Of a DNA stretch of 64,000 nucleotides, positions 34,994-49,762 are shown in pieces (the first letter of the stretch is position 1; the number at the start of each line of letters is the position of its first letter). The position numbers were made by a program, and so were the translations under genes. The DNA comes from Linderina pennispora (Eukaryota > Kickxellomycota > Kickxellomycetes > Kickxellales > Kickxellaceae): positions 682,001 to 746,000 of the forward strand of contig NW_024468252.1 in the NCBI RefSeq assembly GCF_002104995.1. The letters are read 5' to 3'. A model generated the notes under the pieces. That model was not told the DNA's origin and ran no database searches. It saw nothing but the letters and a program-made list of their open reading frames with translations.

Positions 34994-36260
34994 GCCAGCT
35001 TAGAACCCAGTATACCTTTACTTTCACACAAGATTTTATAATAGTCCAAAAGTGTCCGGCCGTCCGCCAGAGCGTTGTTGATTGAGGGGATTCATCCTCT
35101 TTTGAGCCTCACAGCGAGTATGCGTGGCACGCTCTGTAAACTCAACAAACAGTACTCTCTTTTGGTCGACGAGCTCAGATCCCAAGGTGACAAATACATG
35201 TCTTAAAAGCATTCGAAATATCGGTCCCAGAACCTTAGTTCTATCAAAGCACCATTCATGTCAGTTCGCATTTTGTAGATGCAGTAATGTAATAAACAAA
35301 CCACCCAGCTTCCACATCCTCGGCGCTTGGACTTGGAACCATGAGCTTAAGTCTATGGGGTGATAACGGGCTGTCTGCACGGCCCGCAATCGGTCTCATT
35401 AGTTTATGAGAGTGCTCAAAAAAAGGAACCATTGGCTTGCTGGCCAATACATATCCTACATATAGAAGTTGCCCTTCCTGTGTCATCCATCTTTTCTAAT
35501 ACCTCACCCCTTCTACACATTCCGACTTCCGTACAACCCCCTCCCTTACATTCCGTTATTTAATCTTCGTGGCTGCCAGCCATGGGATACCTCGGTGCGG
35601 GGCTCGACTCGGTGATGTGCATCAGCAGCCACTCGATGGATATATCTGACTATGCAAGAATCGCCTGCTCTGGGCACTGGGATGAAACACTGCTTTTGCT
35701 CTGCAACCTTCTGCGATAAACATCGTTATTCCATACCTACAGGCTGGTTCCATCGGGCTCTCTTTGTGGGCACATACCTCCTGCTGTGCCAGACAGGCAA
35801 GGCTCTTGCATGGTTTTACCACTGATCCTGCCCCCGATGGCTCTGCTGCCACCCAGACTGCAAGCAGTCCCCTAAACAAGATGCTAACAAATGTATTTTT
35901 TTTAAGTCTTCTGGGCGGCTACTGTGTTAGCCATAGGCTGCGAAGCCCTGTGACAGACTCCCTGCAGCACTATCGGCTGTCTAAACCATACTGACTAGCC
36001 GAGTTTGCATCGCAAACGGCATAAGTCTGGCACATGGGTTATTGAAAACCGCTGCGGTGTTGACAGCGCCAATGCTGTTTAGGTTCGATGTGCGTGCTCC
36101 TGAGCCGGCTCGGCTTGCACGAGTCACCTGCCATTGTGTACCGCTGTGCTTTTTTATTTTATTTATTTTTTTCAATTTGTGCCGAAATCGCGCGTCTGCA
36201 AACTTTGCTTCTGCTCACATTCAATAATTCAAAATCACATCACAGCTCTGAAAATACAGC
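34994..36260. other. Intergenic region between PHO81 and NDC1, no supported gene
   Basis: 1267 bp, AT-rich, with short ORFs lacking motifs. TTTATTTTATTTATTTTTTTC near 36150-36175 is a T-rich tract just upstream of NDC1, likely promoter. I see no RNA gene or repeat. Confidence 0.45.
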
Positions 36261-41622: not shown

Positions 41623-44045
41623 ATGCTGCGACCCCTGGTCCGACGCTTCCCAGCAGTAGCCCGTTCCCACACACCGCGCGTGCTTTGCGCGCCTTTTGCC
41701 TCTGTTTTCCGCACTATTCCAGTACTCGCAAGAAGCACCAGAATGTACACCGTTCCTACCTCACCCATCCATCGACAACAAGCAACCCATATCGCCGCCA
41801 GCGCCGGGCGCCAAGCCGCGCAATAGCACTGCCGCCGTGGAGTTTGTCAGGCATGTGCGCGAGACGTTCGAGGACGCCTACAGGCATGCATCAGTGACGT
41901 CAGCAACTCTGCTACACAGCAGCAGTCATCCCAGCGTGGTGACACTCGAGTACTCGACGTCGCAGCGCGACTTTGCACGCAGCACCAAGCGGCGGGCTGA
42001 ACACGTTTCAGTGCTCAGCGTATCAGGCGCCGGCGTCACCTGTGCTGGCAAAGAGCTCGCCGACGGACTCGGCAACGGCAGTAGCAAGATCTCGGTCGCC
42101 GCACGATCCCTCCCTGCACGTAGTGTTGCGCAAGGATGACAAGGCGCGGTATGTTGAGGTCTGGCGAGACGAGGCGCTTGTGAAGACCATTAGCGTGGGC
42201 GACACGCATGGCAACTTTTACAGCGACTCGACATTTGGCGGGATTGCGTGGTCGCCAGACAGGAACACGGTGGTGTATGCAGCCGAGCAGCCTGAGTTTG
42301 CTGCTGCCAAGGAAGACGATGGCGTCATTGATGACGATATTGCTGGTGGGATCAGCGATGACCTCACCGGCGCCGTTGCTGGCGTTGCTGATCCGCGCCG
42401 CTATGCCCTCGACAGTGACTGGGGAGAGACATTTAATGGCAAGCGCCCGCCCGTGCTGGTCACCATTGACATCGCCAAGGCATCGATCAGGGCTATCCCT
42501 AGCATAGAGAATGTGTCGCCAGGCCAGGTGCAGTTCTTGCCAGAGCAGCACGATGGCGCTCGGCGCATTGTGTTCACCGGATACAAGCACGACGTGCGCA
42601 AGCACGGAATCGTGTACTGCCAGAACCGCCCGACGGCCCTGTTTATCAGCGACTTGGATGGAGCTAACGTCGACAAGATCGCAGAGGGCTCAGTCAGGTC
42701 ACCGCGTGTCACGCCCTCTGGAAAGGGCATTGTGTATATCTGTACGCCGCTGGGTGGGCCACATGCTGCGACGTCAGAGCTCTGCATGTATGACTTTGCT
42801 TCAAAGCTGACAACCCCGCTGGTGCCGATTATCAACCGACCACTAGACAAAGCGCAGACCATCAATGGAACGCAGCTTCCTGAAGGGTTTGTTGGGCTCT
42901 ACATTGACCAGCTGCCGCTCGACCCATGGGCAAATCCAGAACATACCGATGGCCGTGACGTGATGGTCTTTGCGTCGACATGGCGCAGCACACAGGCAGT
43001 ACTCTCGCTCGATGTGCAAAATCGGAAGCTTACTCGCCACTCACCTGTGGATGGAACCGCCAGCTACTCCGTCATAAGTGTCAGTGGGGATCTAGTTGTC
43101 GGCACGAAATCAACACCCGCACAACCCGCCGCGCTGGTGCTTGGTCGGGTATCCCAGCCAACGGACGCTGCTCAAACTGCGATCCAATGGCACGACATCG
43201 GCAAGCCGCATGACACTGGGCTGGAGTGGAGCATCATCCCTGGAGATCGCGATTCGTGTGAGAGCATCTTTGTGCACCCAGCCAAGCATTCATCGGCCAC
43301 TCGGTACTTCTGGACCGACGATAAGCCTGGGTCCCGCCCGCTGGTTGTGCAACCGCACGGTGGACCGCATTCAACGTACACGCTTGACTTCTCCCCCACT
43401 GCCGCAGCACTCGCCCAGCTCGGATTCGGCGTGCTGCTAGTCAACTTTACCGGATCGCTTGGGTTCGGCCAGGACGCCGTGCTGGCGCAGATCGGACAGT
43501 GCGACACCCTCTCGCTGAATGAGATTCAGCATGCTGCGCGAGCTGTGCAATGCTCCGGCGGCGGCGATCCAGCATCTACCGTGTACGTTGGTGGGTCGTA
43601 TTCTGGCTACACAGGCGCACTTTTGGCAGGTACAGCTCCGGGGTTCTATCGCGGTATCGCCTTGCGCAACCCGGTGATCAGCATCGGTGAGAACGCCGCC
43701 ATGACCGATATCCCTGACTGGTGCTGGGCTGAGCTCGGACTTGAGTATGATTTTGCCAACCCGCCCGAGATCACCCCGCAAGCGTTTGCCAAGATGTGGG
43801 ATGCTTCGCCGTCGCGGTTTGTCGACAAGGTTGTTGACCCCATGCTGTTGCTGCTGGGTGCGTCTGATCGCCGTGTGCCACACCAGCAGTCGCTCAACTA
43901 CTATTATCGTCTGAAGGCAGCAGCCAAGGCCGACGTGCAGTGCAAGATTTACCCGGATGTTGGGCATCCGCTGGACACGATCGAGGCTGAGCGCGACTCG
44001 TTTGTGAGCATCGCGCGATTCTTTGCAAAGTCACTTGGCAAGTAG
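41623..44045 (+). CDS. Acylaminoacyl peptidase (APEH), prolyl-oligopeptidase family S9
   Basis: A serine peptidase that releases N-acylated amino acids from peptides. From an ATG at 41623 the protein is about 807 aa if two single extra bases are skipped (near 41764-41776 and about 42060-42110). Both lie in the poorly conserved N-terminal part, so exact sites are uncertain. A beta-propeller (for example GGIAWSPDRNTVVYAAEQ, ENVSPGQVQFL) precedes the alpha/beta-hydrolase: PHGGPHSTY, the GSLGFGQD loop, nucleophile Ser in VGGSYSGY, Asp in LLGASDRRVP and His in DVGHPLD. The first 40 residues (MLRPLVRRFPAVARSH...) are basic and presequence-like. A second ATG at 41743 would omit them, so dual targeting is possible. 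Confidence 0.88.
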
Positions 44046-44273
44046 CATTTTTATATTTGAAGCCAATATATCATCTCACCCGTGATAGACATAGGGTATA
44101 TCATGGATTGTTGAGATATTACTAGAAATACTCTGCTCGCGATGCGAGCTCGGCTGCTAGTCAGCATGGGTTGACACGTCGATAAGAGCATCACGGCGAA
44201 CCGGTCATTTGAACGTGTCGGATGGTTGCTGGTGCAATATCGATCATGGACATCTTCCATCTTGGTGGCTTGC
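44046..44273 (-). other. Structured 3' flank of the Fanzor gene, candidate guide-RNA region
   Basis: 228 bp between the stop codons of APEH and Fanzor. On the Fanzor strand this is the position just 3' of the ORF, where TnpB and Fanzor guide (omega/f) RNAs usually lie. A perfect 6-bp hairpin with a 3-nt loop occurs at 44135-44149 (GCTCGC-GAT-GCGAGC), and GACACGT (44173-44179) pairs perfectly with ACGTGTC (44213-44219). The part nearest 44046 must also hold the APEH 3' UTR. Candidate only; no expression evidence. Confidence 0.3.
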
Positions 44274-46745
44274 TCAGCGCAGGCGCTTCAGCGCTGGCTC
44301 GCTGCTGCTGGCAACAGAATCGCCTGCTGCTGCTGCACGCCTCTTGCGCGGCCTCTTTGTTGCCGGAGTGGTGCCAGAAGTATCAGCAGCAATGGTCGTA
44401 GAACGATAGAATTGTTCAGGAATACTGCCTGAATCACAGAGTGGCTGGAAAATGAGTCTGAAGTTTAGAACTGCTGCGAGATCGCGGTTCAAGAGCCGAG
44501 ACGAATAGGCCCGCCTGTATTGTGCCATGGCCCGCCTACATGACTCGCTTGTACAGCGGAGAAGGCCATGGCACTTCACAGTTGGGTTCTTCGATCTCTG
44601 GTAGGGCCGCGGACTGGGAACATGCCGGAATGTCTGCAGCGACTTTTCGCAGCAGAATGGGCACATCGACGATGTCCGGAATTCGTCAACCAGATATACT
44701 TCAAAGCCATGGTGCTTGAACTTGTCGCGCCATCCCTTGCCACGAATTGGCGCATGGTATCGGGCCATCGGCGCACTCCAATTGCCCATGATCAGCACTG
44801 GATCTGGACCGAACCTGCTCCGGAGTTTTGCGGCAATCCTGTGGTCTGCACGGTCCTGGTTCATGAATGAATCAAGACATAGCTTGCGGTGAAGCGGGTA
44901 CACCTTGGGACTGGTCCCGACACCCGGATGGGCCTTCCAGCGCCTCTGGTGCTGCTTGTTTGACTTAGTGAGCTGCTGCTCTGGTAACCTTCGCGCTGTC
45001 ATCATGTTGGCATAAAACGGTGCTAGGACACACCGCACAGATGCACGGGCAGCAACGTAGGCACGGAATTTTGCTGGGCTAAGGGTCCGGCAGCAGTGCT
45101 TGGAAAGCTCTGCCTCTGCTCTGCGGACAGCATCTTCTGGGACTTGATCCTTTATACCCCGACAAATCCTGCCATAGTGGCGCAGCTTGAGCTCCTTATT
45201 GCGCTGCTGCCGTGTGTAGCGGTAGAGCATCTTTTCACCCTCTTTCCCATTGCTGCTATTTTCGTGCATCATATACAGTAAATCGCCCCGACCTGGATCG
45301 ATGAATACACAGCGGCCTTTCAGATTCTGCAGCTCTGGCTGTGGAATCTGGTGGATATAGCGACAGTCAGCTATAGTATTGCCTCCCACAGCACCACCTC
45401 CTGCAGCATCGCCTGTAGCATCGCCTCCTGCAGCACCAGCCTTAGGTACCTTGTCTTGCAACAAAATGCATATCGTTATACCATCTGTTGTTGCCATTCC
45501 GTGGAATTTTCTATCACCATGCGCCTTAAATGGCTTTGATGTTAAATCTGCAACCCGGCCCCACACATCCCACACAGATTGTGTGATCCCTTGGGCCAGG
45601 TCGTGTGCACAGACTGGGGGTGCTGGTGCATATGCATTGTCAAGTGCTGCAACAGTGTCTGCTGCTGCCGCCGATGCACCAGCAAGCGAATCAGCCGCTA
45701 CTGCTGCAGTTGCTGTGCTGGCCTCTGTTTCATCTGATGGCATCTTTGCTGCTTCGTGTGCAGCCTTCTTGGCCAATTTTACGCCCTTTTCTGCTGCTTT
45801 CCTTGCCTCTGTTGCTGCCCTCTTTGCTGCATTGATCTCTGTAACCTGCTCGTATGCTTTCGAAATAAACACCTGCTTGATTATTTGCTTGTCTAAGTGC
45901 ACATGGCCTGGGATCCATGATGTCCGCAGAGGCAAGCATTGGGGAGGAGACTTGCCGAGCTGCTCATTCTCGATAAGCTGGCATAGGCGAATGTATGCAC
46001 ACAGATGCTTAAGTGGATTTACCTTGGCATCATAGTATCGGCTGTCTTTGGCGAATCTGTACTTGGCATCATAGGCATTAAGGACTGGTGCCAGCTTGTT
46101 GTAGATTGCAAGCATCGGTGGGGTGAGCACACTGAGATCAGGGTGCCTAGAGGCAACTGCCTGGCGGAGCTTCTGTGCAGGTGCAAAAATACACACTTGA
46201 CATGCATTATTGAACTCGGCCTTAGACACATTGCCCATTGTACTGTGCAGTGTGTTTTTGCGGCTGCGAATATCAACCAATTTGGCCAGAATCCGCTGTA
46301 GGCAACTGCCATAGTGCAACACAATGTTGTTCTTGTATGCTGTCATCAGCTCGGTATCCACGTATGTCGCTACCTGATTCATTTTGCGTATGCCATGTAG
46401 CTCGATATCGCTAGTATGTAATAGATAATCATAAATATGGTATCTAACTACATCACCGAAATCTGCACTCGACAGTTCTGACTTCTCCTTCCGGTTAACG
46501 AAATCCTCGGCAGACATGGCTGTCTTTGCCTTCAGATTGTGATAAATAAATAAATGAATTGAACGAAAGAATCCCTTTTTCACAAGTATTGAAGGGTCAA
46601 AAGCATCATCATCAGCTAGTTGATGGAGTAATATACATCGTGCAAGCATGTATGTATGCTCTTTGATGATATTGACGCTGTGTACAAATTGCTCTAGGCG
46701 GGGTAACATAGAATCACGGAAGCCAATACCACCGAGTGACATCAT
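44274..46745 (-). CDS. Fanzor, TnpB-related RNA-guided endonuclease family protein
   Basis: An intact intronless ORF of 823 aa. The N-terminal helical part is followed by the family phrase LPLRTSWIPGHVHLD (about 271-285), an Ala/Lys-rich insertion (about 300-375) and the RuvC-like nuclease. RuvC-I is FIDPGR (D483). At the usual RuvC-II position the acidic residue is absent (LIMGNWSAP, 651-659), while a downstream Glu is present in VDEFRTS (E688), the rearranged catalytic site described for Fanzors. A zinc ribbon follows (CPFC 695-698, then C725, C731, C736) and RuvC-III is NRDLAAVLNF (D755). A basic KRPRKRR (797-803) can act as a nuclear localisation signal. The catalytic residues look complete. 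An in-frame TAG lies just upstream of the first ATG. Biological role and target are unknown. Confidence 0.92.
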   Translation of the reverse strand: MMSLGGIGFRDSMLPRLEQFVHSVNIIKEHTYMLARCILLHQLADDDAFDPSILVKKGFFRSIHLFIYHNLKAKTAMSAEDFVNRKEKSELSSADFGDVVRYHIYDYLLHTSDIELHGIRKMNQVATYVDTELMTAYKNNIVLHYGSCLQRILAKLVDIRSRKNTLHSTMGNVSKAEFNNACQVCIFAPAQKLRQAVASRHPDLSVLTPPMLAIYNKLAPVLNAYDAKYRFAKDSRYYDAKVNPLKHLCAYIRLCQLIENEQLGKSPPQCLPLRTSWIPGHVHLDKQIIKQVFISKAYEQVTEINAAKRAATEARKAAEKGVKLAKKAAHEAAKMPSDETEASTATAAVAADSLAGASAAAADTVAALDNAYAPAPPVCAHDLAQGITQSVWDVWGRVADLTSKPFKAHGDRKFHGMATTDGITICILLQDKVPKAGAAGGDATGDAAGGGAVGGNTIADCRYIHQIPQPELQNLKGRCVFIDPGRGDLLYMMHENSSNGKEGEKMLYRYTRQQRNKELKLRHYGRICRGIKDQVPEDAVRRAEAELSKHCCRTLSPAKFRAYVAARASVRCVLAPFYANMMTARRLPEQQLTKSNKQHQRRWKAHPGVGTSPKVYPLHRKLCLDSFMNQDRADHRIAAKLRSRFGPDPVLIMGNWSAPMARYHAPIRGKGWRDKFKHHGFEVYLVDEFRTSSMCPFCCEKSLQTFRHVPSPRPYQRSKNPTVKCHGLLRCTSESCRRAMAQYRRAYSSRLLNRDLAAVLNFRLIFQPLCDSGSIPEQFYRSTTIAADTSGTTPATKRPRKRRAAAAGDSVASSSEPALKRLR

Positions 46746-46796
46746 TCGCTACACCTCTTCGATTTCTGAAGATCTGGTGTTCATTAAGATACATGG

Positions 46797-47323
46797 AACA
46801 CATCCGCAACATAAGGGAGAACAGACCAGGACGTCTACCTAACGGGCAGTTCAAGCTCAAGGACTGTTTTGGAGACGATGTGCGCGATGGCGAGCAATTT
46901 CGACTGATCTTTTATTTTTATGACGACCATTCATGCTACAGAGGCGAAGATCGAAATGATAACAATGAGCCAGAGTATGCCGAGCTCGAAATGCCCAGCA
47001 GAGAAACCGTTCTATTCGTTAATGGCGGCTCCATCTTCACCAGCGAGACCATCGGCGACATTGTATATCTCAAGTACAATGAACACTACCTCTACTGCTC
47101 GGAAGATGGCGGATGGCAGATAAAACTGATGCCTGAGCTTCCTGAAGAGAATGAGCGACTGCATTTGCAATATGACAGAAAAATGCTCACCTTTTCGCGG
47201 TGGAACAAAATTGGATGTCTCCATGTGAGCTGGTACCGCCATACCGGTGACGTGTATTTTCTGAAAGACAATGTGATAGACCCTTATGATGAGTGCTTAA
47301 CACTTGAATTGGTAAAAATCTAA
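46797..47323 (+). pseudogene. 5'-truncated paralogue of the 53208-54341 gene
   Basis: An open frame whose last ~175 residues align with the C-terminal half of the gene at 53208: EHIRNIREN against EYIRKCAKQ, then RLPNGQFKLKD against RLPDGQFKLKD, SIFTSETIGDIVYLKY against SIFTSETIDDIVYIKF, and PELPEENERLHLQ against PELPEKEERLHLQ. The ~200-residue N-terminal half is absent. Upstream sequence from about 46790 back to the Fanzor start has no similarity to the paralogue. The remaining frame is open, so loss is recent or the fragment is still used. Function of the family unknown. Confidence 0.7.
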
Positions 47324-47697
47324 GGCAGTTAGTCGTAGTCAGTATAATAAACAGCATTTTTATACATTTCGAATGATGCTTTGAAAGTGAGCAAGCCGTA
47401 GAAATGTAGTGGGAATTGGAGAAAGCCGCTTGATATAGGACGGTGCTGGGTGATTAGTGAATACCGAGTCTGATATCGACTACGTACAAGCTCTATGTTT
47501 GAGATGGTTTGCCATTCCAGCGGTGTTGACAATGAACTGCAACTAAAAGTCACCTAGCGAGCACATGTATCTTAAAAGCTATTCAGCAAGCCGAGATGTT
47601 GACCAAGCAATCCCTCTTGGGATTAGCTGGACCGGTAACAATAAATGAGACTGCAGGAATCGCGACCGGTACCCCTTCAGAGTTGGACCTGCGCAGG
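47324..47697. other. Spacer between truncated paralogue and P450 remnant
   Basis: 374 bp, AT-rich, no gene seen. Gene-B-like 3' flanking sequence would be expected here by comparison with 54342-54529 but is found at 48486 instead. Confidence 0.45.
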
Positions 47698-48657: not shown

Positions 48658-49762
48658 TACCAAGATCATCAGCAACTGCAGAGGAGCAGGAGCTGGTCTA
48701 CCAGACCACTGGTGTTGTGCCTACCTTGTCTGACATATCCATCTTTGTGTCGTTTCTGTTTGCGGTACTTCTTTATGCCAGGGTGCATGCGCTGCTGGCT
48801 GTGTATTCCAGGTGCTAGGAGAGCTGGCCTTCTTTTAGGCCACAATATAGTGTTTGCATTTGTCAGTTGCGTCATTTCCGCTACATTGCTGTTGCCCAGA
48901 ACAAGCACTGAGGCAATATTGCCCAGGGTGGAGACAATGGATTTGCAGTATATGAGGGGGCGGAGCTGGTCACAGGGAGACGCACATTCAAGGGAGGTGC
49001 CACTTCCCTGTGTCCCAGCGGACTGAGCAGGGAAAAATCGCTCACCTGCATCATGTGGATCGTTTGGCGAGAGGCACACGCATTCTGCGCTGAGCAAACC
49101 GGCGGCGAAAACCGCTCAACTTCAGGATCTGCAGGCGCTCGGTGCGGATTCCATGCTTTCTGTTGGTGGGCAATAATGGCTCAATTCCTTCTGGCAGCAC
49201 AGACTCCAGAAACCAGGGACCTGTGCATGCCTGGCTTTGCAACATCACAATGGTGCCATTTAGCAAGCCATTCACACAGCATACTTGCAAACCCGCTATA
49301 TATACGGACGGGTAGTCCCAGCATCCAACATCATCTCCACTACACATACTTTGTATTTCCTCATTCACCAGCCCGTCCTTACACGGTGGCTTCTACTTGT
49401 ATATTCACAGCAGCACTACCCAAAAAATCATCGCGGTCGCCGTATATTCCCTACGCACCTGCCCTATTGACCATTCGGCAACACCCACTATTCGTCCGCC
49501 TTGCTTCCTGTCTAATCGAAACGGCGCAGCAATTGTACGCACGCCACTCTTCTGTGCTTATCTCTAAAAAAAAACTCTACCCCAGACTGCGCTCCTCGAC
49601 GAGAGTATTCGACGCAGCTGTCTATAAATCACCCAAGGCTTCCTTCCATCCAGACTAGCCGAGGTGCAAGGGCTTTGCCTATTTCTGCAGATCTACTGCT
49701 TTCAACAGCAACTACACCGACTATTGTACCTTACATACACCCCCGCTACAACCCACTCCACC
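48658..49762. other. Intergenic region upstream of CCC2
   Basis: About 1.1 kb. It includes a TATATATAC at 49297-49305 and short ORFs on both strands with no recognisable motif. The last ~400 bp are C/T-rich and likely promoter and leader of CCC2. Confidence 0.4.

Follow-up and report, generated by a model that had tools for sequence, protein, structure and literature searches.

The 823-aa open reading frame (ORF) at positions 44274-46745 on the minus strand of a 64,000-nt stretch of the Linderina pennispora genome (contig NW_024468252.1, positions 682,001 to 746,000; this whole stretch is hereafter the window) is, by sequence and fold comparisons, a Fanzor1 gene, and the element that bears it is a Helitron. 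The window copy belongs to a large genomic family, keeps the conserved catalytic residues and is truncated at its 5' side; the family shares its ends with a RepHel Helitron, and at several sites the two stand in tandem. The explanation regarded here as probable is that the window carries one defective copy, cut short at its 5' side, of a multi-copy Helitron which bears Fanzor1, is mobilised by RepHel and has open copies that cut empty sites. Taken alone, the window gene is a truncated, drifting and apparently dead copy of a known enzyme family. The family is more informative, being a composite of Helitron and Fanzor: Fanzor1 is joined at several differently flanked sites to a RepHel element with a common 5' end, and its transposase partner can therefore be named. 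The Helitron context was absent from the original prediction and is invisible from the window alone.

As had been proposed from the ORF itself, which is present as called, the protein falls within the TnpB/Fanzor clan. Its similarity in sequence and fold to solved Fanzor1 proteins is well above that to Cas12 or TnpB, and its structure model aligns with solved Fanzors across 592 residues, which bears only indirectly on whether D483, E688 and D755 come together. The best match in both sequence and fold is PpFz1, the Fanzor1 of Parasitella parasitica (PDB 9cf0-9cf3). Residues were compared in a 64-row alignment of the window protein and 63 of 106 relatives, which were searched for with residues 462-781; an earlier protein search, perhaps crowded by low-complexity words, had given a single match among the best 8000 candidates scored. 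The catalytic residues D483, E688 and D755 named in the original prediction and four cysteines of the zinc ribbon (C695, C698, C731 and C736) are all present and widely kept (Table 1), the former also within the genome, where they were found in 29/30, 28/30 and 30/30 rows respectively (29 loci, L024 being dropped, and one composite). The C-terminus is basic and residues 651-659 contain no glutamate, again as first described. The original prediction was right about the glutamate at E688, and its position in place of the usual RuvC-II residue is the ordinary Fanzor layout. D483 opens a DPG motif (D483-P-G485) and six residues separate E688 from C695, while section 23 of PMC10711439 gives a RuvC D-E-D triad, the DPG and an alternative glutamate six residues before the zinc finger as the defining arrangement of Fanzors. 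PpFz1 likewise has the DPG and the alternative glutamate, and the same part of PMC10711439 treats them as common to the lineage of IS607-type TnpB and Fanzor2; those proteins belong to serine-recombinase elements, whereas the partner here is a RepHel Helitron. It was also noted that in four Coemansia relatives (P0001, P0004, P0041 and P0045) asparagine replaces the third catalytic aspartate as it does in GtFz1, for which part of PMC11423790 reports asparagine at this position to be active and preferred.

Helitrons canonically begin with TC, end in CTRR and insert between A and T. The element studied here begins with TC in a left end reading TCTTTACCT, and its right end consists of the hairpin GCTCGCATCGCGAGC, nine further nucleotides and CTAG, in a few cases CTGG. 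Exact right ends were found at 117 places, followed by TA in 115 of them, with none for a control using the reversed pattern; exact left ends numbered 73 (control 0), with A preceding 59, and five of the 14 lacking it are junctions with RepHel. The family thus shows the 5' TC, the 3' hairpin with CTRR and insertion between A and T, and neither inverted repeats at the element ends nor target duplications were seen; the window copy retains the 3' Helitron end only. An element with inverted repeats was therefore rejected. So was a retroposon, which had been considered for the TCTTTA repeats that resemble an opposite-strand tail, given the lack of target duplications and a 5' end that matches the RepHel Helitron. 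The number of TCTTTA repeats upstream of the 5' end varies among five loci (L011, L021, L024, L027 and L030).

At least 90 matching stretches, grouped by hand into at least 55 loci, were found in the genome, which supplies the copy count that the original prediction had called for. This count is a lower bound, 55 of 571 candidates having been scored; 30 loci were fetched. Eight of 31 sequences (the 30 loci and one composite) have a frame that is open over its full length, 860-876 aa; L019, L022 and L027 were recognized as open with a wider start pattern. Internally deleted derivatives with both ends were also present, and all four that were fetched, picked for short spacing, break near element position 2809. 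Derivatives without the RuvC half (L052, L053, L054, L055 and C112, which joins L031 and L039) have a common breakpoint near 2809-2812, and this suggests one deleted form that spread.

Against a complete copy of about 3.3 kb, the window element covers positions 647 to about 3324. Twenty-six loci reach window position 46739, and the other 25 (25/25) all extend upstream with a common sequence from which the window copy alone departs, complete elements starting 646 bp before its breakpoint. The full-length family protein begins M(N/D)IT...TSLGG, 12 codons ahead of the first family codon in the window, and the ATG-ATG that opens the called ORF lies outside the element, antisense to a host gene segment. 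The copy is therefore not intact, contrary to the original claim, with its first 646 bp and codons 1-12 missing and host sequence supplying its start codons. The only trace of the missing 646 bp elsewhere in the window was a 56-bp match of 77% identity at 35016-35071. Around that match, the 56-59 bp at 35013-35071 resemble the Helitron/Fanzor left end (77-80% identity), with the remaining element absent, and are perhaps an old Helitron end. In a 14-row alignment in which the window protein and two relatives stop short of residue 11, Lys11 of the full-length protein is invariant in the 11/11 rows that reach it (two family copies and nine relatives). With its left end, the element 5' region and the N-terminal 12 residues all lost, the window copy is probably no longer functional.

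How the shortening came about is a separate matter. A captured gene, with 46740-47400 as part of the element, was considered and is weakened by copies of this DNA at C35 and C152, which run on as a longer host gene. There is about an even chance that a later deletion fused element and host gene, rather than that the element inserted already truncated: the gene in the host paralogs continues past the junction, the junction has a TGA microhomology and no target duplication was seen at the window copy, while section 8 of PMC3627910 describes 5'-truncated Fanzor Helitrons as common in Chlamydomonas. Both a later deletion and a truncated insertion fit the explanation favoured here, and the data do not separate them.

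The genome gave 13 matches to Helitron_like_N. One RepHel Helitron, outside the window, was read in detail and contains Helitron_like_N (Rep) and PIF1 domains; its first 79 bp are 97.5% identical to the Fanzor element, and it has a similar 3' hairpin and CTAG, so that a partner coding for RepHel and having matching ends is present. The RepHel 3' motif GAGACTGCTAG was found 22 times (control 10), and RepHel 3' ends were counted only for the 16 occurrences that fall into eight pairs, the two members of a pair being inverted and lying 72 bp apart. A Fanzor left end directly follows the RepHel 3' end at all eight pairs (8/8), exactly in five, while in three the match leaves out the first 3-4 bases of the element. 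Composite 3' flanks were sought at six sites and read at five, no two being alike, and the five 5' flanks read were of four kinds, two loci having one in common. Because the flanks differ between sites, movement of the RepHel-Fanzor composite as one unit is favoured. Neither this composite nor a Kickxellales Fanzor was named in the titles and abstracts of the open-licence literature searched, supplements aside.

It could be argued that the Fanzor element does no more than hitchhike: it would use the RepHel ends in trans, its nuclease would have no role in transposition, and the tandems would have arisen by chance or by a preference for inserting next to RepHel ends. Derivatives that keep both ends but are internally deleted do exist, as do solo elements, and tandem insertion is a known behaviour of Helitrons. 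This is nevertheless unlikely in view of the junction at every paired RepHel 3' end, five of them exact to the base, the composites at sites with different flanks and the purifying selection among open copies.

Fanzor1 genes within Helitrons are described for Chlamydomonas in section 8 of PMC3627910, where CRe-1, CRe-2 and CRe-3 resemble the present family in a 5' end matching an autonomous Helitron, in common 5' truncation and in retained 3' ends. They differ in being Helitron2 elements that insert after TTTT (here TC/CTAG ends and A|TA sites), in having genes of 5 or 10 exons (here a single-exon frame) and in being described as non-autonomous, whereas here RepHel lies directly upstream in composites; section 9 of that paper gives Helitron2 a 5'-terminal hairpin and asymmetric terminal inverted repeats. 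In Spizellomyces, the parts of PMC10432273 and PMC3627910 dealing with SpuFz1/Spu-1 report many copies, open and broken genes, ORF-less relatives and a conserved 3' region, all as in this family, and a SpuFz1 TAM (target-adjacent motif) of CATA, which covers both the CA and the TA flanking the inserted element. Spu-1, however, has terminal inverted repeats of about 30 bp and a putative TA duplication, both of which this element lacks.

The 3' region of the element is conserved and the host flank beyond it variable, and a candidate omega-RNA scaffold was recognized there in an alignment of 29 of about 117 right ends. Its stem 1 would pair 44213-44219 with 44173-44179 (7 bp), and the Helitron 3' hairpin occupies 44135-44149. 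According to section 3, part 1, of PMC11423790, three Fanzor1 omega RNAs have a 7-bp first stem, like the candidate, and the TAM of PpFz1 is ATN, which is compatible with the A|TA target of this family. The host target reads A|TA and the occupied right junction G|TA. Joined flanks, 16 pairs in all, were used to look for empty sites, with scores obtained for 40 of 49 candidates. Among the matches opened, the sole paralogous empty site found to span the junction, L020/C193, has ATA before the would-be protospacer; it differs from the guide at two positions, and its junction contains a few additional bases. The matches for L012/C80 and L018/C166, when opened, were filled copies.

From these observations we infer the RNA, TAM and homing steps of the explanation. 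RepHel protein would act in trans to mobilise solo Fanzor elements and in cis to mobilise the composite. A Fanzor ribonucleoprotein would come from the open copies, its omega RNA beginning in the element's final ~100 nt and continuing into the host flank as guide. At an empty site that matches the guide, this complex may cut beside a TAM of ATA (ATN-type), composed of the host A and TA. Repair of the cut could copy the element back in, and the occupied right junction, reading GTA, would be spared. Several points weigh against parts of this account. The folding energy of the scaffold was not better than that of shuffled sequences (z -0.58, or -1.61 with flank), and a double change occurs in only two of 41 predicted pairs. 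The L028/C16 paralogous site has AAA, not ATA, and 102 extra bases. The count of A at left ends is inflated by the TCTTTA repeats, and the RepHel read in detail has Rep and PIF1 in two ORFs with a stop in the Rep match, so its autonomy is putative. Helitrons, moreover, are generally regarded as elements that copy themselves and do not excise, which makes the cutting of empty sites less obviously useful. No Rfam match was obtained over 43900-47400. It is tentatively, and with more doubt than confidence, that we suggest a composite rolling-circle transposon with its own RNA-guided nuclease, in which the RepHel insertion site A|TA would also serve as the Fanzor TAM, the G of CTAG would take the place of the TAM's A and so shield occupied sites, and the Helitron 3' hairpin would also be the omega-RNA scaffold, turning a copy-and-paste Helitron into a homing element for empty alleles with at least 100 dispersed right ends as guides. 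The Helitron insertion site agrees with the TAM reported for the nearest Fanzor so far studied, and this agreement makes it possible to test directly why an element of the rolling-circle type keeps an RNA-guided nuclease.

Purifying selection was observed among the open copies: the ratio of nonsynonymous to synonymous rates (dN/dS) was 0.26-0.42 in all 21 pairwise comparisons of seven of them (L027, the eighth, was outside this set). With rows L015 and L016 dropped, the private changes of the window copy comprise 20 nonsynonymous and eight synonymous substitutions and no stops. Their ratio of 2.5 fits neutral drift, lying within the 2.13-2.70 expected under neutrality, a range set by the transition weight (binomial p=1.0 for both weights tested); in many of the open copies, private changes are too scarce for a contrast. 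Over all changes against majority codons its dN/dS is 0.41, as expected if selection preceded truncation. The original prediction took the unbroken frame as a sign that the copy may be active, but with a stop weight of about 0.08-0.12 per synonymous change and eight synonymous changes, 28 neutral private changes would yield less than one new stop, so the open frame is weak evidence. That the copy in the window should be intact and encode an active Fanzor, one that uses the ATG-ATG start and works without its first 12 residues, is highly improbable, for all its open frame, complete D-E-D, zinc ribbon and right end, when the element 5' region, the N-terminus and the invariant Lys11 are gone, the start codons are antisense host sequence and the private substitutions are neutral.

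The Ala/Lys-rich insertion remarked upon originally proved real and unusual, with 102 residues between positions 290 and 392 in the window protein. PpFz1 has 16 here, the median over the 64 sequences is also 16, and the next-longest value is 65. It is modelled as two long helices (286-334 and 340-371), and fold matches to this hairpin were unrelated proteins with helical hairpins. PpFz1 lacks this Ala/Lys hairpin of about 100 residues; conversely its FRI domain, which binds cyclophilin (PMC11423790, section 3, part 1), is missing in the window protein, with 38 residues where PpFz1 has 112.

Table 1. Positions of the element, its gene and associated features in the window
Feature	Position	Strand	Evidence
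Fanzor1 ORF as called, 823 aa	44274-46745	minus	
Fanzor1 coding sequence, full-length codon 13 to stop	44274..46739	-	phmmer to PpFz1 and SpuFz1; fold match; family alignment
5'-truncated Helitron-borne Fanzor1 element	44122..46739	-	sharp boundaries common to 29 other loci; left boundary internal to complete copies
ATG-ATG start of ORF call, host sequence	46740..46745	-	absent from 25/25 other loci; in host paralogs C35, C152
RuvC-I Asp D483, in DPG motif	45297..45299	-	D in 64/64 rows; aligns with SpuFz1 D383
RuvC-II alternative Glu E688	44682..44684	-	E in 62/64 rows; aligns with SpuFz1 E541
RuvC-III Asp D755	44481..44483	-	D 57/64, N 4/64; aligns with SpuFz1 D606
Zinc ribbon C695/C698/C731/C736	44538..44663	-	C in 61, 63, 62, 60 of 64 rows respectively
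Ala/Lys-rich insertion, residues 296-391, modelled helical hairpin	45573..45860	-	spacing comparison and model
Candidate omega-RNA scaffold	44135..44219	-	inverted repeats; conserved across 29 copies
Helitron 3' terminus CTAG (44122-44125), then host TA (44120-44121)	44120..44125	-	CTAG/CTGG end at 117 exact places

Beside the element, the 1.48-kb host segment 46737-48213 recurs at C35 and C152 (92% identity); at both places it runs on into a longer gene and adjoins other truncated Fanzor ends. In the window it holds an ORF (46793-47323) with no Pfam match and a C-terminal fragment of a cytochrome P450. Further on, 48661-49501 (about 840 bp) is 98% identical to DNA downstream of the Fanzor copy L017 on the same contig. 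The exportin encoded in the window, which marks the host as a Kickxellales-like fungus, is 79% identical to that of Martensiomyces and 69-76% identical to Coemansia proteins among the 120 listed.
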